Shown here piece by piece: positions 1 through 36,770 of a DNA stretch of 36,770 nucleotides (positions are counted from its first letter, which is position 1; the number at the start of each line of letters is the position of its first letter). The stretch comes from a virus, in IMG/VR virus record IMGVR_UViG_3300036766_000203, positions 1-36,770 of that record; one strand, 5' to 3'. Made by a program: the position numbers and the translations under genes. The notes below the pieces were generated by a model. It made no database searches. It was not told where the DNA came from and saw only the letters and a program-made list of their open reading frames with translations.

Positions 1-125
1 AGAAACATATTAACCTCTCTAAGGGTTAACGACATGAATTGATCTAAGGTCCAACCGTACTCACTACAGATGAGGTCGCAGATATATCCCCAGTCGTTTG
101 GCTCTGGGTCAGGTCCTCGCTTTTT
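1..125. repeat. Terminal overlap, left copy (circular genome)
   Basis: This stretch is identical to the last 125 bases of the window. It lies inside the tail chaperone gene, and the reading frame is open across the join, so the two copies are most simply the same locus seen twice in a circular assembly. It need not be a biological direct terminal repeat. Confidence 0.95.
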
Positions 126-538
126 TTTTGAGCATCAGCAGCCACCTTTGCCTGGAGTGGTCTACTTAAACCAATGGCCTCGATAAGGGCTTCGAAGATT
201 TTTATTTTCTCTTCCATTCCAGAAATGATGTCGAAGAATAGTTGATACCCACCACGTTGTTCGGTTATCTCATCGCCATCTTCATTCTGATAAACCACAC
301 TTTGTTTCTTGAAAAGCTTTTTAGATTCTTCATCCAACTGATGATAAATAATTCTAGAGATCTCTCTGAAATTAATGTCTCTAAATATCTGTTGAAGATC
401 ATTCTTAAATGTATCTTGAAGCCAAACCTCATCACGAAGGGTTAACTTTTTAATTGTAAACACATGATCTTTAAAGCCCTCATGCTTTACGGTGAATGTT
501 GCGTCCGTCGGTTTTAGATCTTCAAGTTTTAATGCCAT
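44..538 (-). CDS. Tail assembly chaperone, short form (lambda G-like)
   Basis: About 164 residues from ATG 538; in-frame ATG 544 and TTG 556 are alternatives, and none has a strong Shine-Dalgarno. It is acidic and helical after an N-terminal part of the kind seen in siphophage tail chaperones (residues resembling LTLRDEVWLQ). It is called from position: directly after the tail tube region and directly before the tape measure gene. Chaperones of this class coat the tape measure protein and recruit tail tube subunits. Near its 3' end the mRNA carries nine consecutive A residues, and a -1 shift there fuses it to the next frame (see the frameshift site). The gene runs up to the circle junction. 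The family is not recognised by sequence alone; the frameshift and the order carry the call. Confidence 0.75.
   Translation of the reverse strand: MALKLEDLKPTDATFTVKHEGFKDHVFTIKKLTLRDEVWLQDTFKNDLQQIFRDINFREISRIIYHQLDEESKKLFKKQSVVYQNEDGDEITEQRGGYQLFFDIISGMEEKIKIFEALIEAIGLSRPLQAKVAADAQKKSEDLTQSQTTGDISATSSVVSTVGP
122..128 (-). promoter_or_regulatory. -1 programmed ribosomal frameshift site (A AAA AAA)
   Basis: In the chaperone frame the mRNA reads CAA AAA AAA AGC, which contains the canonical X XXY YYZ heptamer A AAA AAA, followed by AG. After a -1 slip the frame continues without a stop through 29 codons to ATG 35 and on to 36444. About 13 nt downstream a small hairpin is possible (CCCAG at 108-104 with CTGGG at 93-89, loop about 10 nt). 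The position just before the tape measure gene is where lambda-like phages place this shift. Confidence 0.8.
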
Positions 539-556
539 GAACATATTTCGGCACAA

Positions 557-614
557 GCTGTTAAATCTTACAATAAATATTGTATCTATTTTATATTATG
601 TATACACATTAAAT
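557..614. promoter_or_regulatory. Divergent AT-rich promoter region with palindrome
   Basis: 58 bp separate the leftward chaperone gene from the rightward small-gene cassette. A perfect inverted repeat ACAATA-AA-TATTGT lies at 570-583. A TACAAT -10-like hexamer for leftward transcription (584-579) overlaps its right arm. A TATATT at 592-597 could serve rightward transcription. No -35 box is convincing on either strand. The palindrome is a plausible operator for the ribbon-helix-helix protein encoded just downstream (inference). Confidence 0.45.
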
Positions 615-794
615 ATGGGTAAAAGAGGAAGACCTAAAAAGAAAGAAAATGCCGCGACTGAGGTCGTGCATTTTAGAGTCACTATTAGAGAGAAAAATAG
701 ACTCAGAGGACTAGCAAAGACTTTCTCTAATGGAAACATGAAGAGGTTTATAATCGAACACACTATAAACGCAGAGGTTTATAAACACTCATGA
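615..794 (+). CDS. Small ribbon-helix-helix-like DNA-binding protein
   Basis: 59 residues from ATG 615, with a basic N-terminus (MGKRGRPKKK), a predicted short strand (VVHFRVTI) and two helices (REKNRLRGLAKTF and MKRFIIEHTINA), the layout of CopG/Arc-type repressors. An upstream in-frame start at 492 would run back into the chaperone coding region and is not favoured. It is the first gene of a plus-strand cassette whose genes are joined by ATGA overlaps. The palindrome 30 bp upstream may be its own operator. The fold is inferred from pattern only. Confidence 0.6.
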   Translation: MGKRGRPKKKENAATEVVHFRVTIREKNRLRGLAKTFSNGNMKRFIIEHTINAEVYKHS

Positions 795-1027
795 ACGTAG
801 CTCCACTCTACAAAACAAACACTATTGTACTATGCCCATGTTGTGATGATGAGATAGCTATCGTTGCATTTGATATATATCCTTATGAACAATTAGATGA
901 GCGATCTCTTGGCGGTCTTCAGAGACCTATTAAGAATGGAATGGAAACAAAATGTATTGAGTGTGGTGAGTATTGGTTTGGAGGTGGTAAGTTTTTAAAG
1001 ATTAAACTTCCACCATTGTTATCATGA
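791..1027 (+). CDS. Small zinc-ribbon-like protein
   Basis: 78 residues with two cysteine pairs, CPCC near residues 15-18 and CIEC near 55-58, fitting one four-cysteine zinc site. The start ATG overlaps the stop of the previous gene (ATGA), and the stop overlaps the next start in the same way, so translation is probably coupled. The function is unknown; such proteins often bind nucleic acid or hold a larger complex together. Confidence 0.6.
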   Translation: MNVAPLYKTNTIVLCPCCDDEIAIVAFDIYPYEQLDERSLGGLQRPIKNGMETKCIECGEYWFGGGKFLKIKLPPLLS

Positions 1028-1188
1028 GCGTTTGGTATTGGCCAGATAGAGATGTTTTAATTTTGCATGATAATGATGATGATCTATTTAAAGAATATAT
1101 ATGCCAAGGAATTTATAGGGTTTACACAGCGATCAGAAATAAAAAAGTAAAGTCTTTTGAACGCTTAATTTACATAGGAGAATTATGA
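1024..1188 (+). CDS. 54-residue acidic hypothetical protein
   Basis: Starts MSVWYWPDRDVLILHDNDDD and ends YIGEL. Its start overlaps the upstream stop and its stop overlaps the downstream start, both as ATGA, which is the main support for it being real. No motif is recognised. It fills what would otherwise be a gap in a tightly packed cassette. Confidence 0.6.
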   Translation: MSVWYWPDRDVLILHDNDDDLFKEYICQGIYRVYTAIRNKKVKSFERLIYIGEL

Positions 1189-1496
1189 CACTAGAAAAAT
1201 TCTTAAGACAATATGCAGCTCTTGGAAGATGTCACTTCGATGTGGTGGCAAAGGATCTAGATGATGGTGGAATAAGACTTACAATTAATCCTCAAGGAAC
1301 ATCTGAAGAACAACATGTGTTTCTATTCAGAGACCAACTAATGCCAAAGAGTGGGACATTTAAAAAAGAAGCAAACGCAGCAATGCAAGTTCTAGATGCT
1401 TGTCGTGATAGAGACACTAAGATCTTGGCTCTTCAAAAAGGCATAGAAGATCTATGGGTCGAAGCACGCTCTGAACACATAACAAAGATAGGATGA
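1185..1496 (+). CDS. Hypothetical phage protein (103 aa)
   Basis: Preceded by a good ribosome binding site (ATAGGAGAATT). A mixed alpha/beta composition suggests a small soluble domain: strands around FDVVAKDLDD and GGIRLTINPQG, then helices from about residue 60 to the end. The sequence is not recognised. It is the largest gene of the plus-strand cassette and lies between a 54-residue protein and a Cys-rich protein. Confidence 0.6.
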   Translation: MTLEKFLRQYAALGRCHFDVVAKDLDDGGIRLTINPQGTSEEQHVFLFRDQLMPKSGTFKKEANAAMQVLDACRDRDTKILALQKGIEDLWVEARSEHITKIG

Positions 1497-1497
1497 T

Positions 1498-1731
1498 ATG
1501 GCTAACGCAAATCATCTAGCAAGATTGGGACTTACAAATCAGGTTGTTAACTATCAGGAACTAATAACAACAAAGATAAGATATGAAGAGGTCTCTGTCT
1601 GTACATCATATACATGCGCAGGACCAAATCTAAGTGGAGCAATTAAGACAAGAGTGGTTTACAAGGACGGATGGTATGTATGTCCTGACTGTAGTTACCC
1701 TGTAAAAATAAGAAGGATAAACAACGTATGA
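1498..1731 (+). CDS. Small Cys-containing protein (possible zinc ribbon)
   Basis: 77 residues. Cysteines lie in CTSYTC (about residues 35-40) and CPDC (about residues 65-68), compatible with one metal site. The start follows the previous stop by one base with AGGATGAT upstream; the stop overlaps the next start (ATGA). The function is unknown. It is the second zinc-ribbon-like protein in the cassette. Confidence 0.6.
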   Translation: MANANHLARLGLTNQVVNYQELITTKIRYEEVSVCTSYTCAGPNLSGAIKTRVVYKDGWYVCPDCSYPVKIRRINNV

Positions 1732-1850
1732 CTAAGAAGAAATTGGCTCGTGCTAAGAAGCTTAAGAAGAAAAGAAATATGAAGATAAACAACACTAAGC
1801 ATTCAAAACTAAAAAAGAAGAAGTATCAGACATCACACATTGATAGATAA
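1728..1850 (+). CDS. 40-residue lysine/arginine-rich peptide
   Basis: Starts MTKKKLARAKKLKKKR and ends SHIDR. Nearly half of its residues are Lys or Arg, so it is probably a nucleic-acid-binding or charge-neutralising peptide. The ATGA overlap with the upstream gene supports translation. It is directly followed by the strong RNA hairpin at 1854-1919, which it could contact or which could end or protect its message (inference). Confidence 0.55.
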   Translation: MTKKKLARAKKLKKKRNMKINNTKHSKLKKKKYQTSHIDR

Positions 1851-1853
1851 GGC

Positions 1854-1919
1854 GAGACCCTGAGAGCAACTTAGTACGTTGGAAAGGGAGTCCTAGGTTG
1901 ATGATCATCTCAGGGCCTC
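1854..1919 (+). ncRNA. Long two-stem RNA hairpin of unknown function
   Basis: The plus-strand RNA can form an outer stem CCCTGAGA (1858-1865) with TCTCAGGG (1908-1915), extended by GAG/CTC after one mismatch. It can also form an inner stem CAACTTAG (1867-1874) with CTAGGTTG (1893-1900), which has one G-U pair. The apical loop is 18 nt. It has no U tract, so it is not an ordinary terminator. It sits between the Lys-rich gene and a TTG-start gene in the same cassette. It could be a processing or stability element, a protein-binding site or a small RNA. Confidence 0.5.
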
Positions 1920-1949
1920 AACAAATGTATCGGACGATTTGGAGATAGC

Positions 1950-2123
1950 TTGAAGAAGAGACAAAGAAAAAAGGTAATTAAAAAAGAAGGTGACGGATAT
2001 TTAAAACTTCTAAGAGCCGGCCACAAGCTTCTAAGACAAGGTAGTGCTCCTGAAACATCTTTTCTTGTCGATTACCAAACCTATCAAAATCTTGAGAGAC
2101 TTATAAAAAATAAAGCCCCGTGA
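1950..2123 (+). CDS. 57-residue basic hypothetical protein, TTG start
   Basis: The TTG start is chosen because GGAG lies five bases upstream and an in-frame stop lies further up with no ATG between. The N-terminus is strongly basic (LKKRQRKKVIKK, first residue read as Met), followed by a helical part ending in ERLIKNKAP. The stop lies inside the left arm of the bidirectional terminator. It is the last gene of the plus-strand cassette. No family is recognised. Confidence 0.55.
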   Translation: MKKRQRKKVIKKEGDGYLKLLRAGHKLLRQGSAPETSFLVDYQTYQNLERLIKNKAP

Positions 2124-2146
2124 TTTTAAATATCAATCGGGGCTTT
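2112..2146. terminator. Bidirectional intrinsic terminator
   Basis: A perfect stem AAAGCCCCG (2112-2120) / CGGGGCTTT (2138-2146) with a 17-nt loop lies where the plus-strand cassette and the leftward head/tail tube operon converge. On the minus strand it is followed by a U-rich stretch (ATTTTTTAT), typical of an intrinsic terminator. On the plus strand only the short CTTT follows, so it is probably weaker in that direction. Confidence 0.8.
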
Positions 2147-2194
2147 GCGGACCTCCGAAGAGACCCAAATGCTATCTGTTCAGACAGCGTTGAC

Positions 2195-3091
2195 TTATGT
2201 GCCTGTAGGCTTAATGTGTGTAAACTTAAATACAGCATCTACCGCTGAATCATACAACAACTTAACCTTCACATCTGCTTCTGACCAAGCGTTCTGATCG
2301 AAACTGATTGGCATCCCTGCACCTTTACATCGATAAGCCTCAATAGAAGCCATCTCTTGATTGCCTCTTTTTTGAGTCATGATGATGCAACCGAACTCTG
2401 GGAACGTGCTGTTAGCAGAAGCTCCGATAAGAACCTCACTTGATGCTGAGTTAGGTGGTCTTACTGTGAATGTCGCAGTTGTACCAGCGGTTAACCCGAT
2501 CGTTCCAGATCCACCAACTAAATCAATACCGAAGTTAGTGATCGTAGTAAGTGTTGCACCTGTGGTGATAGTAAGAGGTGTTGCTGTGATCTTTAAAAGA
2601 TCGTTCTGATAAGTGCCGTTAGTACCACGAGCAATATCTACGTCTGATCCGTAGAACACATCAACCGTAGTGGCAGAAGCATAGGCAACAACATAGCTAC
2701 CGAACTTTAGATCAGCAGAAGATCCTGACTTTAAAGCTACAGAAGCAATACCTGTAGTTGCATGTTTTAAAGTTGATCCTGATACGTTAGTCAATGTTGT
2801 CACTGATCCTGACGCCTCAGCACCGTTCGCTGTAGGGGCAAGGCCTAAGAAAAGAGTGAACAAGAAATCAGGATATTCACTAAACTTCAAACTCATCTCA
2901 GCCTGAATCTGACCGTCTTCAGCTGCCCATGAATACTTAGAAGATCCACCCATTAATTCAATGAGTTGACCAGCCAAACTAATCGACGAACTCTTAAGAA
3001 CCTTTAGTTCTCCGTAGAAAGACCCGTCAGTTCTTGAATAAGGTGTCACTGAGTGAACTCCGAAAATCGCTCTTGGATTTGATAATGCCAT
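2195..3091 (-). CDS. Major tail tube protein
   Basis: 298 residues, rich in Thr, Ser, Gly and Val, with strand-forming sequence throughout. It begins MALSNPRAIFGVHSVTPYSR, a typical opening for phage tail tube subunits, and ends in a strand-rich segment. It lies after the tail terminator-type genes and ends just before the bidirectional terminator, where tail tube genes are expected. An inserted middle section (about residues 95-215), rich in Thr and Ser, may be an extra surface domain. It would form the hollow tube through which DNA passes. The call rests on order and composition. Confidence 0.7.
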   Translation of the reverse strand: MALSNPRAIFGVHSVTPYSRTDGSFYGELKVLKSSSISLAGQLIELMGGSSKYSWAAEDGQIQAEMSLKFSEYPDFLFTLFLGLAPTANGAEASGSVTTLTNVSGSTLKHATTGIASVALKSGSSADLKFGSYVVAYASATTVDVFYGSDVDIARGTNGTYQNDLLKITATPLTITTGATLTTITNFGIDLVGGSGTIGLTAGTTATFTVRPPNSASSEVLIGASANSTFPEFGCIIMTQKRGNQEMASIEAYRCKGAGMPISFDQNAWSEADVKVKLLYDSAVDAVFKFTHIKPTGT

Positions 3092-13231: not shown

Positions 13232-13762
13232 CTAACCCCCTATTTCATTTAGGATAACAAACTTGCCAAAGATTTTAGAGGCCATCTCATTATACTTTAG
13301 AGCAGCCTCTTCTACTGTTTGGAATGAACCACCAGACACCCTAACCCCATCTGCATTTATGAATCTAACCGTATAGGTCCCATATCGTTTGTCTTTGGTT
13401 ACACCTTTATATCCAGTGGTATTATTCCGCTGGAGTCTTTTATTCATTTGATTCTCGGAGTTGGTACACATTCTTAGGTTCTCTCTACGATTATCTAGAC
13501 CATCAAAGTTGATATGATCAGCATACCTATTGGTCTGAATAACAAAGGCTGGGTCATTAAACATTCTTGCAAGGACAAGACGATGCATTCCCATTGCCAT
13601 CTGTTCTTTCTTAGATCCTCTGGTTATGGTCGTGAAGGCGTGCCTTAATTCATACGTTCTAAGTCCGGATGCATTTTGTAAATGCCAAGAGAACTTATTC
13701 AAATATTCATAGTCTTCTGGTGAAACAATCGTTACATTTCCATTTCCTAGTTCTATATTCAT
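13232..13762 (-). CDS. HNH homing endonuclease with C-terminal AP2 domain
   Basis: 176 residues. The HNH core includes MGMHRLVLARMF (H60), YADHINFDGLDNRRENLR (D82, H83, N91/N95) and MNKRLQ. Residues 117-172 form an AP2 DNA-binding domain (TGYKGVTKDKRYGTYTVRF, then GGSFQTVEEAALKYNE). It is wedged between a small early gene (ATGA overlap) and terS. Endonuclease genes beside terminases are frequent. It probably nicks or cuts DNA to promote its own spread; a packaging role is possible but not shown. Confidence 0.9.
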   Translation of the reverse strand: MNIELGNGNVTIVSPEDYEYLNKFSWHLQNASGLRTYELRHAFTTITRGSKKEQMAMGMHRLVLARMFNDPAFVIQTNRYADHINFDGLDNRRENLRMCTNSENQMNKRLQRNNTTGYKGVTKDKRYGTYTVRFINADGVRVSGGSFQTVEEAALKYNEMASKIFGKFVILNEIGG

Positions 13763-14948: not shown

Positions 14949-15162
14949 ACGTTGGATTACTTTTATTCAAGATGCTTAAATTACTCTCATGAAGCGCTAC
15001 TCTTTTCCTACAGTGAGAACATGTAGTTCTATCTTTATAGATAGTGACGTACCTAGATTTTAATTCTCTACCACAGAAGGTCTTAGTTTTTTCATAGTTC
15101 ATCTTAATATTCACCCAAGGATCTTCTATATGAATCACTCTTCTCTCTTGTGCGGTTGTCAT
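14932..15162 (-). CDS. Small protein with CxxC motif (76 aa)
   Basis: The central part FCGRELKSRYVTIYKDRTTCSHC has the cysteine spacing of a small zinc site seen in phage-encoded 'TFCGR...TCxxC' proteins. The start overlaps the upstream stop (ATGA). Probably a soluble accessory protein of the early region; no known reaction. Confidence 0.6.
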   Translation of the reverse strand: MTTAQERRVIHIEDPWVNIKMNYEKTKTFCGRELKSRYVTIYKDRTTCSHCRKRVALHESNLSILNKSNPTYEVFS

Positions 15163-15491
15163 AGCTTTTCCTTTGGATATCTAGCGAGAACCTCAGAAAC
15201 AACAAGAGCCTGAGGAAACCAGTTTTCGCCTGGATGGTATTTTTGAATAAACTCTTTGTCGAAATACTCAAGCGCATCACGGTAATCATCACGCTCTAGT
15301 CCAATACTCGCAATCATTGCAGCTCCTTGAGCTGCATAAATAGCGATTTTACTTTTTAATTCATCACGCTCTTTGCGGAGGGCTTCTATTTCTACTTCTA
15401 GCTCTCCAATTTTTTTATCATCTGGCCACATGTCACCCGCGCACCATACCTTGCCGTCATTCACGCCTTCATCTTTTGGGTCTGGGCTCAC
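15159..15491 (-). CDS. Coiled-coil hypothetical protein (110 aa)
   Basis: A heptad-like segment at about residues 27-50 (KIGELEVEIEALRKERDELKS) is followed by a helical C-terminal domain containing FIQKYHPGENWFPQALV. The start and stop both overlap neighbours as ATGA. Such coiled-coil early proteins are common in phages; no function assigned. Confidence 0.6.
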   Translation of the reverse strand: MSPDPKDEGVNDGKVWCAGDMWPDDKKIGELEVEIEALRKERDELKSKIAIYAAQGAAMIASIGLERDDYRDALEYFDKEFIQKYHPGENWFPQALVVSEVLARYPKEKL

Positions 15492-15706
15492 AACTTCTCC
15501 GGGTCGATGTCGAGTGCTTCACAACTCTTGCATGTAAACTTATATTGATGTGAAAATGGTTTATATAGGCATTTACATTCAAAGCTTTCAAGCGCCTCTT
15601 TCAGCTTCTCGATAACTGCGATGGCTTGGTCTTTGCTCTCATAAAGTGATATCGCACTTCGTTCGTCTCTGATTTTCTCAAGCCAAGCTTCAAGTGGCGT
15701 GTTCAT
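15488..15706 (-). CDS. Small protein with paired cysteines (72 aa)
   Basis: The N-terminal half is a helix (EAWLEKIRDERSAISLYESK). The C-terminal half carries FECKCLY and FTCKSCEALD, four cysteines able to bind one zinc. ATGA overlaps on both sides place it in the coupled early chain. The function is unknown. Confidence 0.6.
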   Translation of the reverse strand: MNTPLEAWLEKIRDERSAISLYESKDQAIAVIEKLKEALESFECKCLYKPFSHQYKFTCKSCEALDIDPEKL

Positions 15707-15849
15707 GGTAAGTCCAATTCATCAATTAAATCTAACATTTCATTCACGGCTTCTTTTAGTCCGGCGTGTTCTTTTTTTTGACAATCCATATACGACCAAA
15801 TTTCTTCTTTAAGTTCTTCAGCTTTTTGTTTTAAATCAAATAGTGTCAT
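15703..15849 (-). CDS. 48-residue acidic helical protein
   Basis: MTLFDLKQKAEELKEEIWSY at the start and NEMLDLIDELDLP at the end; probably two helices. The stop overlaps the next start as ATGA, and the start overlaps the stop of a 22-codon frame in the same way. Confidence 0.55.
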   Translation of the reverse strand: MTLFDLKQKAEELKEEIWSYMDCQKKEHAGLKEAVNEMLDLIDELDLP

Positions 15850-15914
15850 TCTTCACCGTCTAAATCCCCAGCCCATGTCTTAGACACTATCAGCCCGTAA
15901 TTATCTATGTTCAT
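15846..15914 (-). CDS. 22-residue micro-ORF in the coupled chain
   Basis: [20 protein letters not shown] then EE and stop. It begins inside the stop of the repeat gene (ATGA) and ends inside the start of the 48-residue gene (ATGA). Its main value may be to carry ribosomes from the repeat gene to the next gene. A real peptide function is not shown. Confidence 0.4.
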   Translation of the reverse strand: MNIDNYGLIVSKTWAGDLDGEE

Positions 15915-16231
15915 AGCCTACTCCCACTCCTACTCCTACTCCTACTCCAACTCCTACTCCCACTCCTACTCCAACTCCCACTCCAACTCCCACTCCTACT
16001 CCTACTCCAGCTCCCACTCCTACTCCAACTCCAACTCCCACTCCAACTCCCACTCCAACTCCCACTCCCACTCCCACTCCCACTCCTACTCCAGCTCCCA
16101 CTCCTACTCCCACTCCAACTCAAACTCCCACTCCTACTCCTACTCCTACTCCAACTCCTACTCCCACTCCTACTCCCACTCCCACTCCAACAATTTTCAT
16201 AACCAACTCTACTTATAGTTTGGTTAATCAT
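15911..16231 (-). CDS. Ser-(Gly/Arg/Trp) dipeptide-repeat protein
   Basis: 106 residues: [15 protein letters not shown], then about 45 dipeptides of Ser followed by Gly, Arg or Trp (once Leu), ending SRL. Its start overlaps the upstream stop (ATGA), which selects this frame over the Gly-Val frame of the same strand; that frame is closed by TGA near 16120. The repeat encodes an unstructured, basic, aromatic chain resembling RS-type low-complexity segments. It might bind RNA or form condensates (inference). Alternatively the peptide is incidental and the RNA matters, since every unit carries GGAG. Confidence 0.5.
15918..16189. repeat. Tandem hexanucleotide array, about 45 copies
   Basis: Plus strand reads ACTCCN repeated, with N mostly T, C or A; a few units carry GCTCC or CTCAA variants. 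Minus strand, the transcribed sense, reads NGGAGT repeated, and short runs of GGG occur where N is G. The unit is two codons long, so copy-number change keeps the frame. The strand is almost pure pyrimidine on one side apart from a single A per unit. Confidence 0.95.
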
Positions 16232-16560
16232 TTTTGTCCTTTAAACAAACTATGCCCCCACTCAGTGACGTCAATAATTGATCCAAGTGGAATTTTTACG
16301 TCTGAAATAAATCCTTCGTATTCATTGCATTTTCCATCCTTCAAGAAATCATGAAATCTTCCCGTGTCAGCTATCCATGCTGCTTCGTCTAAAATCAACC
16401 ATTGTCCGACAATAGCTTTAATCTTGCCGGTATAGTAATGGGTTACCGTTCTGATGAACACTTTCTCTCCCACGATCAACGGTGCTTTTGATGAGACCGT
16501 TGGTCTCAGCAAGCCCTGTATTTCTTTAAGTTCTTTTACTGTCATACTATCTAGATCCAT
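16228..16560 (-). CDS. Hypothetical early protein (110 aa), SH3-like
   Basis: After an N-terminal helix ([18 protein letters not shown]), the middle reads [20 protein letters not shown], then [17 protein letters not shown], a strand pattern like small SH3/KOW-type barrels found in phage early proteins. The ribosome binding site GGAGTAAGAA precedes the start. It overlaps the upstream gene by 14 bases and the repeat gene downstream as ATGA. Confidence 0.65.
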
Positions 16561-16717
16561 TTCTTACTCCTCTAATAAGTTTAAATAAACTAATCATCTC
16601 TCCACCCTCGCCACCTTCACCTGATATCCAAATTGAGTCTTTCTCATATAGTTTTTCTAAACTACTATCGAACTCTTTTCTAATCTTTGCGGTTAGTTCT
16701 AACATTTGTTCTTTCAT
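16547..16717 (-). CDS. 56-residue hypothetical protein
   Basis: MKEQMLELTAKIRKEFDSSL, then a Gly-rich turn (SGEGGEGGEM) and a short basic end. The start shares a base with the stop of the upstream gene (TAATG), and it overlaps the next gene by 14 bases. Helical; function unknown. Confidence 0.55.
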   Translation of the reverse strand: MKEQMLELTAKIRKEFDSSLEKLYEKDSIWISGEGGEGGEMISLFKLIRGVRNGSR

Positions 16718-16893
16718 TATTCTCCCCTAGCCTCAACGCCAATAAGTTCTAATATTCTCTTTCTGATTTTAATAAGATCGCACCATAGTCTTTGTTTAAG
16801 TCTAGACTGGGTTAGTATTTGATTCATACACTCCTCATATTCTTTCTCTAGATCCTTTTCTACTTTCTTAAGAGCATCCATTTGTGTCTTCAT
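16717..16893 (-). CDS. 58-residue coiled-coil protein
   Basis: MKTQMDALKKVEKDLEKEYE followed by CMNQILTQSRLKQRLWCDLI, almost wholly helical and charged. The start overlaps the stop of the HNH gene (ATGA), with AAGG upstream. No function assigned. Confidence 0.55.
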   Translation of the reverse strand: MKTQMDALKKVEKDLEKEYEECMNQILTQSRLKQRLWCDLIKIRKRILELIGVEARGE

Positions 16894-17354
16894 TTGTTTT
16901 GCCTTTTATTATTTGCCTGCTCTGTTAAGGTTGCCCATCGGCAGTTCGATGGTTTGTAGTTACTATAAGGATTAATTCTATCAAGGCTTTTGTCTTTAGG
17001 TCGTGGGCCCATATCTTTGTAGAAGTTCTCAAATGAATTAACCCATCGACTACAAACCTTTACGCCTCTACCTCCATAATATTTCCAGTCCTTATGTTTT
17101 TTATCTTTGCATCTCGCCTTCATAGAAAGCCATGTTATATATTCTCTTGTTTTTGTCATGCCATGTGTTTTAAATATCTTAGAAAATCTCTCTGCTCTCC
17201 AACAACCACAACTATAACTAACCCCAGTTTTTAAATTACTAATCTTTGGAGTAGAATTCTTTCCGCAATCACAAAGACATAACCATTTTCTATGTGACGG
17301 CGTTTTGTGGCTATTTTTTATTTCTTTTATTAGAGTTAGTCTTCCGAACTTCAT
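16890..17354 (-). CDS. HNH endonuclease-like protein (154 aa)
   Basis: Start chosen at ATG 17354, giving MKFGRLTLIKEIKNSHK and overlapping the upstream stop as ATGA; a start 7 codons earlier is possible. Zinc-binding WLCLCDCG and SCGCWRAER lie N-terminal. The catalytic part has YYGGRGVKVCSRW, then MGPRPKDKSLDRINPYSNY and SNCRWATLTEQANNKRQ. This zinc-ribbon plus HNH arrangement is shared with two other genes here. It ends 16 residues after the HNH core, shorter than its relatives, and may lack the C-terminal DNA-binding part. Confidence 0.85.
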   Translation of the reverse strand: MKFGRLTLIKEIKNSHKTPSHRKWLCLCDCGKNSTPKISNLKTGVSYSCGCWRAERFSKIFKTHGMTKTREYITWLSMKARCKDKKHKDWKYYGGRGVKVCSRWVNSFENFYKDMGPRPKDKSLDRINPYSNYKPSNCRWATLTEQANNKRQNK

Positions 17355-18013
17355 TTGATTCTTTCTTGGAGCCATTTAAGTCCGCTAAGATAATACTGAG
17401 GAAGATCAGAATTCCCTGATCCTTCATGAAAGTAAATATTGAGCGCATGATTATAGTCCCTATACTTTAAATAGATTCTAGCAGCTAGCCTTGAGATAAA
17501 TGTTCCTCCAAATCTCTCAGCGTAGCAAAGAGAAATTATGTGGTTAAGATCATTAGCAACATACGAGTAGCCATTAAGGCAAATAATAATAGCGTTGAGA
17601 AGAGTGAACAAATCTGCAACCCAAACATACCACCTTGCTCTTTTGAAATGGCTTAGATGTTCTGGTGATGCTATGTCGTTGTTGGGATAGCGGTACATAC
17701 GATCACGACATTCAGCATAGGTCTTCTCCCTTAAATAATAAAGTGATGGATAGAATTGTATCGCCATCATGAGTGGATCAAGTTGATCTCTCGAGCAGTC
17801 AAGGGGATCGGTCCATTGTTGGGGTGATCTTATCCACTGGCCCTTATCATTTTGTAATAACTTAACAACATTTTCAAAAGGTTGAAGTTCTGTTTTAATA
17901 CTACAAAGATTTATTAAGAAATAGATACGACCCGACTCACTTGCGGAGTCCCCTCTGTCGATATCACCCGCCCAATCGAGACTTGAAATGAGTCCGTTGT
18001 TATCAATCAACAT
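17351..18013 (-). CDS. Hypothetical protein (220 aa)
   Basis: Begins MLIDNNGLISSLDWAGDIDR. The middle has WTDPLDCSRDQLDPLMMAI and a Tyr/Arg-rich part (YLREKTYAECRDRMYRYPN). Two hydrophobic stretches (YVWVADLFTLLNAIIICLNG; ISRLAARIYLKYRD) suggest peripheral membrane contact or a helical core. A similar 'SRDQ.DPL' block occurs in uncharacterised phage proteins (from memory). It is the largest non-HNH gene between the annealing-protein region and the repeat gene. Confidence 0.6.
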   Translation of the reverse strand: MLIDNNGLISSLDWAGDIDRGDSASESGRIYFLINLCSIKTELQPFENVVKLLQNDKGQWIRSPQQWTDPLDCSRDQLDPLMMAIQFYPSLYYLREKTYAECRDRMYRYPNNDIASPEHLSHFKRARWYVWVADLFTLLNAIIICLNGYSYVANDLNHIISLCYAERFGGTFISRLAARIYLKYRDYNHALNIYFHEGSGNSDLPQYYLSGLKWLQERIK

Positions 18014-22085: not shown

Positions 22086-22393
22086 GCTGCCCCCACAAGA
22101 AGAAAGTAAGGCCCAGCCGCAAACAGTTCTGGTGAAGGAGTTGCTGCGACTGAGCCCGCCCACAAGGGCCATTGATCTATTAAGTTTAACCACCAGAACA
22201 TATGAAAATTATTCAAGGCCATAGAGTTTGGCAACAACTTTGCTTTGCGCCATTTTAAAACCATGCCGCCACCAGACAATCTTACACGTTCTTACATTCT
22301 CAACATGGTGCTCTCAGATCGATTATAGACAGGCATGTCTTTTTACATTGTCTTTGATCATGCCGCATTGTATTATATATATATGAGGTGAAT
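22086..22393. promoter_or_regulatory. Divergent control region of the early operons
   Basis: No convincing gene lies between the initiator start and the rightward cluster. Features from left to right: a 14-codon frame MAQSKVVAKLYGLE (minus, near 22254), which may be a relic of a helix-turn-helix gene; a minus-strand TATAAT at 22327-22322; the inverted repeat AGACA-GGCA-TGTCT at 22327-22340; and a plus-strand TTGTCT (22348-22353) - 17 bp - TATTAT (22371-22376). GAGG lies five bases before ATG 22394. The inverted repeat is placed between the divergent promoters, as an operator would be. Confidence 0.55.
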
Positions 22394-22699
22394 ATGAAGA
22401 ACACTAGAGGGCCTTGGAGGCGTGCCGGTAACATTATCTGGGGGGCTGAAATTCAAAGCAAAGTGGCTCAGGTATATTCTCAAGCAGGGCTGGTGAGTGC
22501 TGAAGAAGAGAAAGCAAATTCCATCTTAATAGCAACCGCACCAGAATTGCTTGACGCTCTTAGATCTATAATTTCAGAACTTCACATGTCTGGTTGTATC
22601 AACTACATGAACGAGGCCAGCGCATACGCAGAAGCCTTTAATGAAAAACTGCATAATGCAGAAAGAGTAATAATCAAGGCTACTGGTGGTGAAAAATGA
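22394..22699 (+). CDS. Hypothetical phage protein (101 aa)
   Basis: Start ATG 22394 is chosen because the GTG two codons upstream lies in the Shine-Dalgarno GAGGTG. MKNTRGPWRRAGNIIWGAEI, then NSILIATAPELLDALRSIIS, match a widely seen phage protein of unknown role. The stop overlaps the next start as ATGA. Confidence 0.7.
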   Translation: MKNTRGPWRRAGNIIWGAEIQSKVAQVYSQAGLVSAEEEKANSILIATAPELLDALRSIISELHMSGCINYMNEASAYAEAFNEKLHNAERVIIKATGGEK

Positions 22700-22944
22700 A
22701 AACAATTGAACTTCCATTTGAATGTTATTTAGAAATCAAATATGAATCCAACAAAGGAACAGAGCCACACTACGACCACGCTCATGGAAACTGGCTTCCA
22801 GGTGAGGCGGCCTATGTGAAGATCGTTGACGTTTACATCGGACAGGGGAAATATCAGGCAAGCATTCTAGGACAGCTAACTGATAATGAAATAACTGATC
22901 TTGAGAATCAAATATTTGTACGTGAACAGAATGAGGATGAATAA
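22696..22944 (+). CDS. Hypothetical phage protein (82 aa)
   Basis: MKTIELPFECYLEIKYESNK, a His-containing PHYDHAHGNWLPGEAAYVKI and then a C-terminal LTDNEITDLENQIFV. This 'ELPF....PG..A.V.I..V' order is familiar from short phage proteins of unknown function. Translation is coupled by overlap with both neighbours. Confidence 0.65.
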   Translation: MKTIELPFECYLEIKYESNKGTEPHYDHAHGNWLPGEAAYVKIVDVYIGQGKYQASILGQLTDNEITDLENQIFVREQNEDE

Positions 22945-23135
22945 TGATTTTAAAAAAAGAAGAAGTGTTGCGGTTTATTATGGATATAAAGACAGAACTA
23001 CTTCTCATGAATGTGGACACAACATTTGTGGACAAAACACTTGAAAGCTTAATGGAAGTTGATAGCCCAGAGCTCAACACATCGTTAATAGTTTGTGCAC
23101 TTATCACCAAGGCACTTGCGATAAATACAAAATAA
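22944..23135 (+). CDS. Small helical hypothetical protein (63 aa)
   Basis: MILKKEEVLRFIMDIKTELL onward; helical and acidic, ending in ITKALAINTK. Its start shares a base with the upstream stop (TAATG). Nothing recognised. Confidence 0.55.
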   Translation: MILKKEEVLRFIMDIKTELLLMNVDTTFVDKTLESLMEVDSPELNTSLIVCALITKALAINTK

Positions 23136-23146
23136 CAGGAGAGAAA

Positions 23147-23359
23147 ATGGCCAAAAGAACGTTCAAACCTATGCAGAAATATATTACAAAGCCGAGAAAG
23201 AAATTTAACCTCCAAGCCAAAATTGACAAGGAACTTGTGCTAGCCGTATCTAAAATGCTAAAAAAGCACAACATCAAGTGGACAAAGCTTCTAACGGTAG
23301 CGCTTGTGAAATATTTAGATGAAGCTGGCGTTAGACATAATTTTGGCGATCTTCTTTGA
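23147..23359 (+). CDS. Ribbon-helix-helix-like DNA-binding protein (70 aa)
   Basis: Start ATG 23147 with AGGAGAG seven bases upstream. After a basic arm (MAKRTFKPMQKYITKPRKK), a strand (FNLQAKID) is followed by a helix (KELVLAVSKMLKKHN), a turn, and a second helix (KWTKLLTVALVKYLDEAG), the RHH pattern. It is the last gene of the rightward cluster and a candidate binder of the inverted repeat at 22327-22340. Its 3' end overlaps the end of the convergent membrane protein gene by 29 bases. Confidence 0.65.
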   Translation: MAKRTFKPMQKYITKPRKKFNLQAKIDKELVLAVSKMLKKHNIKWTKLLTVALVKYLDEAGVRHNFGDLL

Positions 23360-24347
23360 TAAGAGCCAGGTGAACGCAGCACATAAGATAGAAGCAGGAA
23401 ATCTCGAACCTGAAAGGGTAGTATGTCAGACAACCTGCATAGGCTCCCGCAAGACTCGCAAAGAGCCATGGTACGTTATATGATCGAACTAAAGTCACAA
23501 CTCCAACAGATAGAAATAATAAAAGTCCAACTATCCCCTGCTCAAAGAGACACTGCAGATATTCGTTGTGAAGAAATAAAAACAATTCTTGCCGACCTTG
23601 CTCCATATCTACAATTGGACCCACCCACAAAAAAGATCCTGTCCCACCACCAAAAAGATGACTCATGTTCGTCCACCAATAATCAGTCATAGCTATCCAC
23701 TCAGGAAACCTAGTCCCTGGATCAAATGGCTTTAAGTTCCAAAAGAAAATCATTGTAGCTATCATCGCCGGTGGAAATAAAAGCACCCACCACTTTTTTT
23801 CTGCTAGGGCCAACGCTAGTGCTTCAGCAGTTAGAACCATGAGAGCAGTCGAACCTCTTGCCCTGATGATCGCCATGAGAGGGAGAATCACTAGAAGAAA
23901 CCAAAAGCCTCTATGTTTAAACTCTTTCGCCTGAAGCCACATGAATGGTAAACACATAGCAATAAATGTTGAGTCACAAGATCTAGCGTTAAATATTCCA
24001 TACTCGTTATATAAAACTATACCGCTATCAACCACAGCAATCAGACATAGAACAGGCATTACTACTTCTCTGAATGTCCACTTGGTAATGTTCTGAAGTA
24101 TCGCGACCGTGATCGTTATTTGAGCAAAAGCAATGGCTGCAGACTCGTCCACCCTCGGACTAATCTTCCCATATAGATTGTCATCACCAAAAAAAAGATC
24201 AATTGCTGAAATACATGTATATCCTAATGTTACTCCTGCCAACCACCCATATTTTTTGCCTATCTGAAATGACCACAGAATAGTAAGAATAATGAATGAT
24301 ACATACATGTGGGTTCTGTAGATGTCCCCAAGAATCAAATGAAACAT
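23331..24347 (-). CDS. O-antigen ligase/polymerase-like membrane protein (Wzy/WaaL superfamily)
   Basis: 338 residues with about eight to ten hydrophobic spans. Near residues 233-278 it has GGGTGSFLWVGPIV, then a periplasmic-type loop and HNEYLQCLFEQGIVG, the hallmark of O-antigen ligases and polymerases (conserved G..GSF and HNxxL..L.E.G..G). A phage-encoded member could alter host surface sugar after infection, as some serotype-converting phages do. It is shorter than many relatives (around 400), and its first codons overlap the end of an HNH gene, so its N-terminus may be trimmed; M14 is an alternative start. Confidence 0.75.
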   Translation of the reverse strand: MFHLILGDIYRTHMYVSFIILTILWSFQIGKKYGWLAGVTLGYTCISAIDLFFGDDNLYGKISPRVDESAAIAFAQITITVAILQNITKWTFREVVMPVLCLIAVVDSGIVLYNEYGIFNARSCDSTFIAMCLPFMWLQAKEFKHRGFWFLLVILPLMAIIRARGSTALMVLTAEALALALAEKKWWVLLFPPAMIATMIFFWNLKPFDPGTRFPEWIAMTDYWWTNMSHLFGGGTGSFLWVGPIVDMEQGRQELFLFLHNEYLQCLFEQGIVGLLLFLSVGVVTLVRSYNVPWLFASLAGAYAGCLTYYPFRFEISCFYLMCCVHLALIKEDRQNYV

Positions 24348-24961
24348 TTTGGTTTTCTTTTTTGAATAGGAATTGAAATAGAGTCCTCAGTAGACCATCC
24401 GGCGTTTAACCTTTTCTGAAGAACGTCATGGCAAATATTATATTTCCTAGAAGCATTTTTTAAGGTTATTTTTTCTCCGGCTATCTTTAAAATTCTGTTT
24501 GATCTTCTGTTATTGCACTGTTCTCGTAGCGTGGCCCATCTGCAATTGCTAGGCTCATAGTTGCCGTTGTTGTTGATGCGGTCTATGGAATGTTTTGGAG
24601 ATGGTCTTGGCCCCATGTCAGCAAAGAAGTTTTTAAATGAGGACCAACGCTCACAAACCTTAATTCCTCTTCCACCATACCTATACCAATCTTTCCTATT
24701 TGGCTGACTACAACGAGCCTTTACTTTGCTCCACACATTATATTCCACTGACTCACTTCTGCCATGTGTGGTGTTTTTTAATTTTATGCGTTCTATTCTT
24801 AAGCATCCACAGCTGCGAGTGCCTCTTTTTTGGCGCTTGAGATCACACAATTGTGAAGACGTTTTATTCCCACAATCACATTGGCACAGCCAATGTCTTT
24901 GGGAGGGCTGGTTATGGCTTTCTACAATTTCTTTTATTAAGGTTAGTCTTCCGTATTTCAT
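24335..24961 (-). CDS. HNH endonuclease-like protein (208 aa)
   Basis: MKYGRLTLIKEIVESHN starts in an ATGA overlap with the upstream gene. Zinc part WLCQCDCG and SCGCLRIER. HNH part YGGRGIKVCERW, FFADMGPRPSPKHSIDRI, NYEPSNCRWATLREQ. The C-terminal ITLKNASRKYNICHDVLQKR followed by GWSTEDS looks like a DNA-binding repeat. It shares a 29-base identical stretch with the gene at 18507 (24557-24585). It separates lysis genes from the membrane protein gene. Confidence 0.88.
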   Translation of the reverse strand: MKYGRLTLIKEIVESHNQPSQRHWLCQCDCGNKTSSQLCDLKRQKRGTRSCGCLRIERIKLKNTTHGRSESVEYNVWSKVKARCSQPNRKDWYRYGGRGIKVCERWSSFKNFFADMGPRPSPKHSIDRINNNGNYEPSNCRWATLREQCNNRRSNRILKIAGEKITLKNASRKYNICHDVLQKRLNAGWSTEDSISIPIQKRKPKCFI

Positions 24962-36444: not shown

Positions 36445-36680
36445 TAGACCTCCTGTTGATATCTTCTTTTAACTTCTTCTTGTTTACGGCTCATTGCTGA
36501 GTCAACCGCTAGTTGATCGGCAGGGCTTAGTTCGTCTGGAAGCTCCTGTTCCATCTCGTCTTCATCTAGTGGAACATTAACCTCAAGACCATGTATCTTG
36601 GCTTCAAACACGTTGTCGTTATTTCGTCTTTTCATAGAAGTCTTTAGAAACATATTAACCTCTCTAAGGGTTAACGACAT
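36444..36680 (-). CDS. Tail assembly chaperone, frameshift extension (lambda T-like)
   Basis: A 78-residue frame beginning at ATG 36680 (equal to base 35). The same frame is open further upstream, round the junction, to base 122, so this is best read as the 3' half of a -1 frameshift product rather than a separate gene. The shared upstream part reads GPDPEPNDWGYICDLICSEY and then GWTLDQFMSLTLREVNM, a tryptophan-rich segment of the sort found in T-frame extensions. A fusion would have about 246-252 residues. There is no good ribosome binding site before ATG 36680, which supports translation only through the shift. The frame stops at TAG 36446-36444, where the tape measure start codon begins. 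Confidence 0.75.
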   Translation of the reverse strand: MSLTLREVNMFLKTSMKRRNNDNVFEAKIHGLEVNVPLDEDEMEQELPDELSPADQLAVDSAMSRKQEEVKRRYQQEV

Positions 36681-36770
36681 GAATTGATCTAAGGTCCAAC
36701 CGTACTCACTACAGATGAGGTCGCAGATATATCCCCAGTCGTTTGGCTCTGGGTCAGGTCCTCGCTTTTT
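36646..36770. repeat. Terminal overlap, right copy (circular genome)
   Basis: Exact copy of bases 1-125. Base 36646 equals base 1, so the non-redundant circle is 36,645 bp. The overlap ends inside a run of nine Ts (121-129 in the left copy), an unlikely place for a natural terminus. Confidence 0.95.

Follow-up and report, generated by a model that had tools for sequence, protein, structure and literature searches.

Comparison with described systems

The closest analogue that we can name for the locus described here is the 'ant moron', or immI region, of phage P22 (Arc, Mnt, ant, sieA), which lies between genes 16 and 9. It occupies a late-operon position, encodes ribbon-helix-helix (RHH) repressors and varies in content (PMC2629481), and it is thought to affect the amount of transcription reaching the tailspike gene (PMC2629481, PMC8022706). 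A second comparison is offered by the RHH protein MobC of RA3, which represses its own promoter via an imperfect palindrome between the -35 and -10 elements (PMC4175270). The subject of this analysis is the gene for a short RHH protein (gene 1) at the head of seven small rightward genes, a cassette that lies between the leftward genes for the major tail tube protein and the tail assembly chaperone of a tailed phage. The DNA analysed, hereafter the window, is the whole 36,770-base virus record IMGVR_UViG_3300036766_000203. With moderate confidence we read the locus, on the basis of sequence comparison, as an autoregulated RHH repressor that would act on its own promoter and probably on that of the tail chaperone, with moron cargo (genes 2-7) behind it.

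The locus shares with the P22 ant moron an RHH regulator and a position in the late operon. It differs in belonging to another phage group, in its site between tail tube and chaperone, in its single RHH gene, in its unrelated cargo (no antirepressor family was matched among genes 2-7 in Pfam, PHROGs or NCBIfam, unlike in P22), and in that the core of the candidate site follows the RHH residues across relatives. The MobC/NikA-type plasmid proteins are likewise RHH proteins, and the family's most frequent Pfam match is NikA-like (21 of 28 members). In contrast, the proteins here are short, stand-alone phage products encoded among tail genes, the candidate site has no sequence relationship to the RA3 palindrome, and no relaxase or oriT was seen, although no search was aimed at them. 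In the acr-aca operons of B3-like Pseudomonas phages, small genes are combined with an autoregulator in a moron among the late genes. The window cassette resembles them in its small orphan genes and predicted autoregulator, whereas its regulator is an RHH protein rather than a helix-turn-helix Aca and stands first rather than last, and no known Acr protein was matched in NCBIfam or PADLOC. By analogy, the locus would work like the P22 ant moron and RA3 MobC, although membership in either is not claimed. What appears to be new here is the candidate operator and its co-variation with the RHH protein.

A resident RHH gene at the tail site

Relatives were located with the tail tube gene as landmark, and their loci carry L-numbers. 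An antisense RHH gene occupies the tube/chaperone site in 39 of 55 scorable relatives (tail-tube rows) and is lacking in 16; it mostly stands alone. A search of 26 whole records found an RHH match in 18, exactly one per record, and the loci retrieved by an RHH protein query (L096, L101, L103, L104) again hold the gene between tail tube and chaperone. The family consists mostly of bare RHH proteins of 55-90 residues, usually without a partner gene. Gene 1 itself displays the hallmarks of the RHH (MetJ/Arc) class, namely a strand followed by two helices, alternating strand residues and a G-N/S turn. Its AlphaFold model (predicted local distance difference test score, pLDDT, 85) places the helices at residues 24-37 and 42-52; the RHH strand pairs only in the dimer, and the model is not of a dimer. 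Structural matches are modest, with ArtA first (Z 5.5) and Arc second (Z 5.1), and AtaR, NikA and NikR also listed. An earlier reading of the window, made without database searches (the sequence-only reading), had called the first gene RHH-like, and each line of evidence given for gene 1 in Table 1 agrees.

Comparison of the loci thus shows gene 1 to be resident at this position in divergent relatives, and not part of a single inserted block with genes 2-7. Since the resident RHH gene is usually alone and genes 2-7 were found only in the window record, the cassette is not one self-contained insertion. The earlier proposal of a self-contained, regulated moron is therefore retained in part: the arrangement is moron-like with an RHH regulator in front, and genes 2-7 resemble morons in the sense of Hendrix in that they are additional to what the relatives carry at this position. 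In several relatives a gap of 12-80 bp takes the place of the cassette. The clean insertion borders that had been expected were not seen, by eye, in the pairs of RHH-carrying and RHH-less loci compared (L046/L052, L012/L015 and L063/L067).

A candidate operator near the chaperone start

Every three-base dyad with a spacer of 0-10 bases (704 dyads) was scanned in the RHH/chaperone regions of 22 groups, with shuffled controls. TGT-N4-ACA was present in 13 of the 22 groups as against 0.88 expected by shuffling (z 10.6), while the best of the 704 dyads in each of 200 shuffles had a mean z of 3.0 and a maximum of 4.8; the dyads ranked next in the scan are parts of this same pattern. TGT-N4-ACA occurs 5.4 times per kb in the RHH/chaperone region and 0.20 times per kb in the remainder of these loci. 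Of 23 RHH groups, 13 have the dyad no more than 100 bp from the chaperone ATG, as against 0 of 13 RHH-less loci (Fisher 7e-4, uncorrected for relatedness). Measured from its centre, the distance to the chaperone ATG is 44-79 bp (median 58, with L057 as an outlier at 13), whereas the distance to the RHH start varies from -1 to 204. Two held-out loci, L101 and L103, also carry the dyad, the latter in two perfect copies. Because the dyad stays near the chaperone where the intergenic region is long, we think that the chaperone promoter is a target of the RHH protein.

A CRP-type site was also considered. The sequence TGTGATCACA looks like CRP half-sites put together, but it lacks the 6-bp spacer and its core varies with the RHH residues, and this assignment was rejected.

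Co-variation of the core with RHH strand residues

Arc reads DNA through Q9, N11 and R13, and the strand of the RHH family was placed on Arc to name the reading residues. Proteins with K-x-E pair with the core CATG (L014, L103 and, with one mismatch outside the core, L009), and those with R-x-E pair with CCGT/ACGG (L053, L054, L024). L096 and L080, both R-x-E, are without an exact dyad; L096 yet has the predicted core in the near match AGTACGGATA, and in L080 it was read by eye in TGTACGGCAA. A weaker near match, AGTCCTGACA, is found in L046 (K-x-E). The correspondence between core and residues extends to loci outside those used for dyad discovery. Three classes can be assigned to six clades in 60 ways, of which the true one scores better than all others, the classes having been defined after inspection of the data. 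If the rule is true, changing K-x-E to R-x-E in the L014 protein would shift its predicted site from TGTCATGACA to TGTCCGTACA.

Several observations count against the repressor reading. The window copy at 599-608 is not significant alone, as 5% of shuffles hold one, and the exact dyad is missing in about 40% of the RHH groups as well as in the held-out loci L096 and L076. Promoter matches are weak (the -10 match on the chaperone strand scores 4.9, shuffles 4.4), and the spacing to the chaperone is partly forced in short regions. In L002 and L008 other antisense open reading frames lie upstream of the RHH gene, which need not be first. The core rule is incomplete, since the R-x-N proteins of L003 and L033 have differing cores and the F-x-Q protein of L026 shares CATG with the K-x-E class.

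Termination after the tail tube gene

In 27 of 49 relatives, the 110 nt that follow the tail tube gene hold a late-strand terminator. The opposite strand has one in 4 of 49, and random windows have one in 4 of 549. The late-strand terminator occurs also in the RHH-less relatives L015, L041, L064, L067 and L070. Judged from these terminators, the late transcript is punctuated after the tail tube irrespective of the cassette. The sequence-only reading had assumed that tube and chaperone elsewhere belong to one late transcript, which the above counts do not bear out, and that the cassette splits this transcript in two. As the post-tube terminator is common in relatives, including RHH-less ones, the cassette is not what splits the late transcript. 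The terminator had further been taken as bidirectional; it is strong for the leftward late strand, but weak rightward, where the tail reads UUUGCGG. Terminators within late operons are known, their role being unsettled (PMC8022706).

Proposed mechanism and alternatives

We propose that this phage group carries a regulatory site within its tail operon. The sequences show the conserved position, the RHH family, the dyad and where it lies, the agreement of its core with the RHH residues, and the late-strand terminator; binding, repression and timing are what we infer in the following. Gene 1 would encode a short RHH repressor, antisense to the late genes, whose dimer would bind TGT-N4-ACA between the RHH gene and the divergent chaperone, in the window at the point where the cassette transcript is expected to begin. 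Such binding would silence the promoter of gene 1 (autoregulation). Because the distance from the dyad to the chaperone start hardly varies, binding would probably also restrain the promoter of the distal tail genes, which the terminator behind the tail tube would separate from the main late transcript. Behind gene 1 and within its transcript, the lineage of the window may have accumulated six small genes as moron cargo, which would be expressed early or from a prophage under gene 1 control.

Among the alternatives, an Aca-like role fares best, although we regard it as rather unlikely. Here the RHH protein would repress only its own strong cassette promoter, sparing the tail genes antisense harm in the manner of Aca proteins at anti-CRISPR operons and leaving the chaperone promoter unaffected, and genes 2-7 would be an Acr-like early burst. 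This agrees with the dyad being right at the RHH start codon in many relatives (L003, L014, L009, L053, L054, L103), with genes 2-7 being small, orphan and tightly packed like acr genes, and with the head genes of the window phage, which have a distant likeness to those of B3; B3-like phages are known to carry acr morons among their late genes. However, with long intergenic regions the dyad keeps to the chaperone and may be up to 204 bp from the RHH start, neither NCBIfam nor PADLOC gave an Aca match in addition to the missing Acr match, and the known Aca proteins are helix-turn-helix proteins.

It is improbable that the locus spreads by homing, in which nuclease-RHH fusions would cut the tube/chaperone junction of competitors at the RHH site and the stand-alone RHH genes would be domesticated remains. 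Nuclease-RHH frames do occur at the same site in L048, L034/L084 (weaker) and L104, those of L048 and L034/L084 aligning over much of their length, and a free HNH endonuclease adjoins the RHH gene in L023. The presence of the RHH gene is also patchy on the tail-tube tree, where well-supported branches force at least seven changes. Yet most members are short and stand-alone, the cores differ among lineages so that a nuclease would not cut most relatives, and endonucleases land in many phage loci; those seen here may have done no more than join a gene already in place. It is very improbable that gene 1 is the RHH antitoxin of a toxin-antitoxin or addiction cassette whose toxin is among genes 2-4, for although RHH antitoxins autoregulate via palindromes, AtaR is among the structural matches and three family members touch the TacA1 profile, the family is mostly bare RHH with the partner gene usually missing, and no toxin family was matched for genes 2-7 in Pfam, PADLOC or NCBIfam, so that no toxin gene was found beside the RHH gene.

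Cassette layout and cargo

Seven plus-strand open reading frames, the number given by the earlier reading, span 615-2123. For six of them the named frame is the one that codon usage supports, gene 3 being ambiguous. The ATGA overlaps of that reading are found at four of six junctions (genes 1/2, 2/3, 3/4 and 5/6); genes 4 and 5 are separated by 1 nt and genes 6 and 7 by 99 nt. The two four-Cys zinc-ribbon candidates and the Lys-rich 40-mer are likewise seen in the sequence (Table 1). The long RNA hairpin is present, but its stability is only moderate (z -2.5 on the plus strand, 2 of 200 shuffles being equally stable); the wider stretch around it has a z of -3.0 on the minus strand. No Rfam family was matched by the hairpin, nor was a match to it found in a DNA search of named phages, and the Rfam search gave nothing credible. 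The perfect inverted repeat at 569-584 is also real, but was rejected as an operator, being not above chance in shuffles of the A+T-rich region. A promoter scan of the cassette gave no score above shuffles, and its terminator is weak in the cassette direction.

Table 1 Features of the window and of the corresponding site in relatives.
Feature	Position or locus	Strand	Basis or remark
Tail assembly chaperone (first part), divergent from cassette	47..538	-	Homologues between tube and tape measure in L003, L011, L014, others
Divergent control region, chaperone/gene 1, 78% A+T	539..614	.	Sequence and comparison with relatives
Perfect inverted repeat TACAAT-AAAT-ATTGTA	569..584	.	Dyad equally long in 173/1000 shuffles of 539-614
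TGTATACACA, window copy of TGT-N4-ACA (candidate RHH operator)	599..608	.	Centre 65 bp upstream of chaperone ATG, 11 bp before gene 1 ATG
Gene 1: 59-residue RHH DNA-binding protein, basic GRPKKK N-terminus	615..794	+	Family alignment, Pfam, AlphaFold, structural matches
Gene 2: 78 residues, four-Cys zinc-ribbon candidate (CPCC ... CIEC)	791..1027	+	Sequence; one weak motif-level match, L075
Gene 3: 54 residues	1024..1188	+	Sequence; codon usage does not favour its frame
Gene 4: 103 residues	1185..1496	+	Sequence; low-confidence model, three strands then long helix (pLDDT 62)
Gene 5: 77 residues, four Cys in ribbon spacing, zinc-ribbon candidate	1498..1731	+	Sequence
Gene 6: 40 residues, Lys-rich (15/40)	1728..1850	+	Sequence
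Spacer with long RNA hairpin	1852..1932	+	Folding versus shuffles
Gene 7: 57 residues, TTG start behind GGAG	1950..2123	+	Sequence, codon usage
Intrinsic terminator of leftward late transcript after tail tube gene	2110..2148	-	U-rich tail UUUAUUUUUUA; weak in cassette direction
Major tail tube protein	2195..3091	-	67 viral contigs and 3 Bdellovibrionota genome bins
Extras at same site: Zn-ribbon-like gene and third gene	L048, L053
Extra at same site: free HNH endonuclease beside RHH gene	L023
Extra at same site: amidase	L070
Nuclease-RHH fusion, GIY-YIG	L048:7407-7928		Pfam 8.8e-6
Nuclease-RHH fusion, GIY-YIG, weaker	L084:2-496		PHROGs 0.0097; same contig as L034
Nuclease-RHH fusion, endonuclease VII/HNH-like	L104:2635-3204		PHROGs 2.5e-10
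Genome bins with window-type tail tube	L073, L074, L076		Bdellovibrionales metagenome-assembled genome (L073), Oligoflexia metagenome-assembled genome (L074), third genome of same phylum (L076)

The suggestion that the cassette forms a nucleoprotein or an anti-phage/anti-host system found no backing, with no credible family match for genes 2-7 in Pfam, PHROGs, PADLOC or NCBIfam. PADLOC matched gene 3 (0.0018) and gene 5 (0.008) along 29-38 residues of long profiles, matches that we regard as chance, and the gene 4 model is too poor for use. Single-protein scans of viral contigs, which covered genes 2, 4, 5 and 7, returned the single weak match of gene 2 in Table 1 and nothing for the other three. 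Gene 4 had no match in the records of 34 relatives, in a search run without a positive control, and none of genes 2-7 was found in the tube/chaperone interval of any relative. Named phages searched at DNA and protein level with the cassette region, the tail tube and an RHH relative gave no match other than a chance one for gene 4. One may guess at counter-defence or host takeover as the function of genes 2-7.

The window record and its host

The window encodes a terminase, a portal, a B3-like major head protein, a tail completion protein and a tape measure protein. Its tail tube protein is absent from the named phages of the collection; homologues occur in three genome bins of Bdellovibrionota, the group of the predatory Bdellovibrio bacteria (Table 1), and the host is therefore probably a member of this phylum. 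The record ends (1-46 and 36680-36770) fall between the two chaperone frames, and joining them would restore the gene order of relatives. The record holding L080/L081 is likewise cut near the tail tube, and both genomes are probably circular or permuted, with the break at a random point.

Elsewhere in the window, the GC skew falls to -0.29 and -0.45 at 15001-17000, far under most of the record. This small genome has three HNH-type endonuclease genes (13235-13762, 16893-17375 and 24338-24961), one with an AP2 domain. The last adjoins 23334-24347, whose 338-residue product matches the O-antigen ligase family Wzy_C (1.8e-9) and is possibly a surface-modification protein. A second rightward cluster of small genes lies at 22388-23359, and its last member (23147-23359, 70 residues; phrog_33101, 1.2e-4) is RHH-like by eye.

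Implications

A bolder generalization, which we consider unlikely to hold in full, is that one-domain repressors fixed at the tube/chaperone junction of Bdellovibrionota phages time the distal tail genes, that the 4-bp operator core co-evolves with two RHH strand residues as a readable recognition code, and that nuclease-fused members home by the same code. If the proposed mechanism is true, the late tail genes of an uncultured phage group would be under a local antisense repressor, beyond a global late switch. Natural variation among the RHH proteins and sites of this single locus would then offer ready data on how a 4-bp core is selected by two strand residues. The tube/chaperone junction would likewise be an entry point for accessory genes and endonucleases, and a place to seek counter-defence genes in phages of predatory bacteria.
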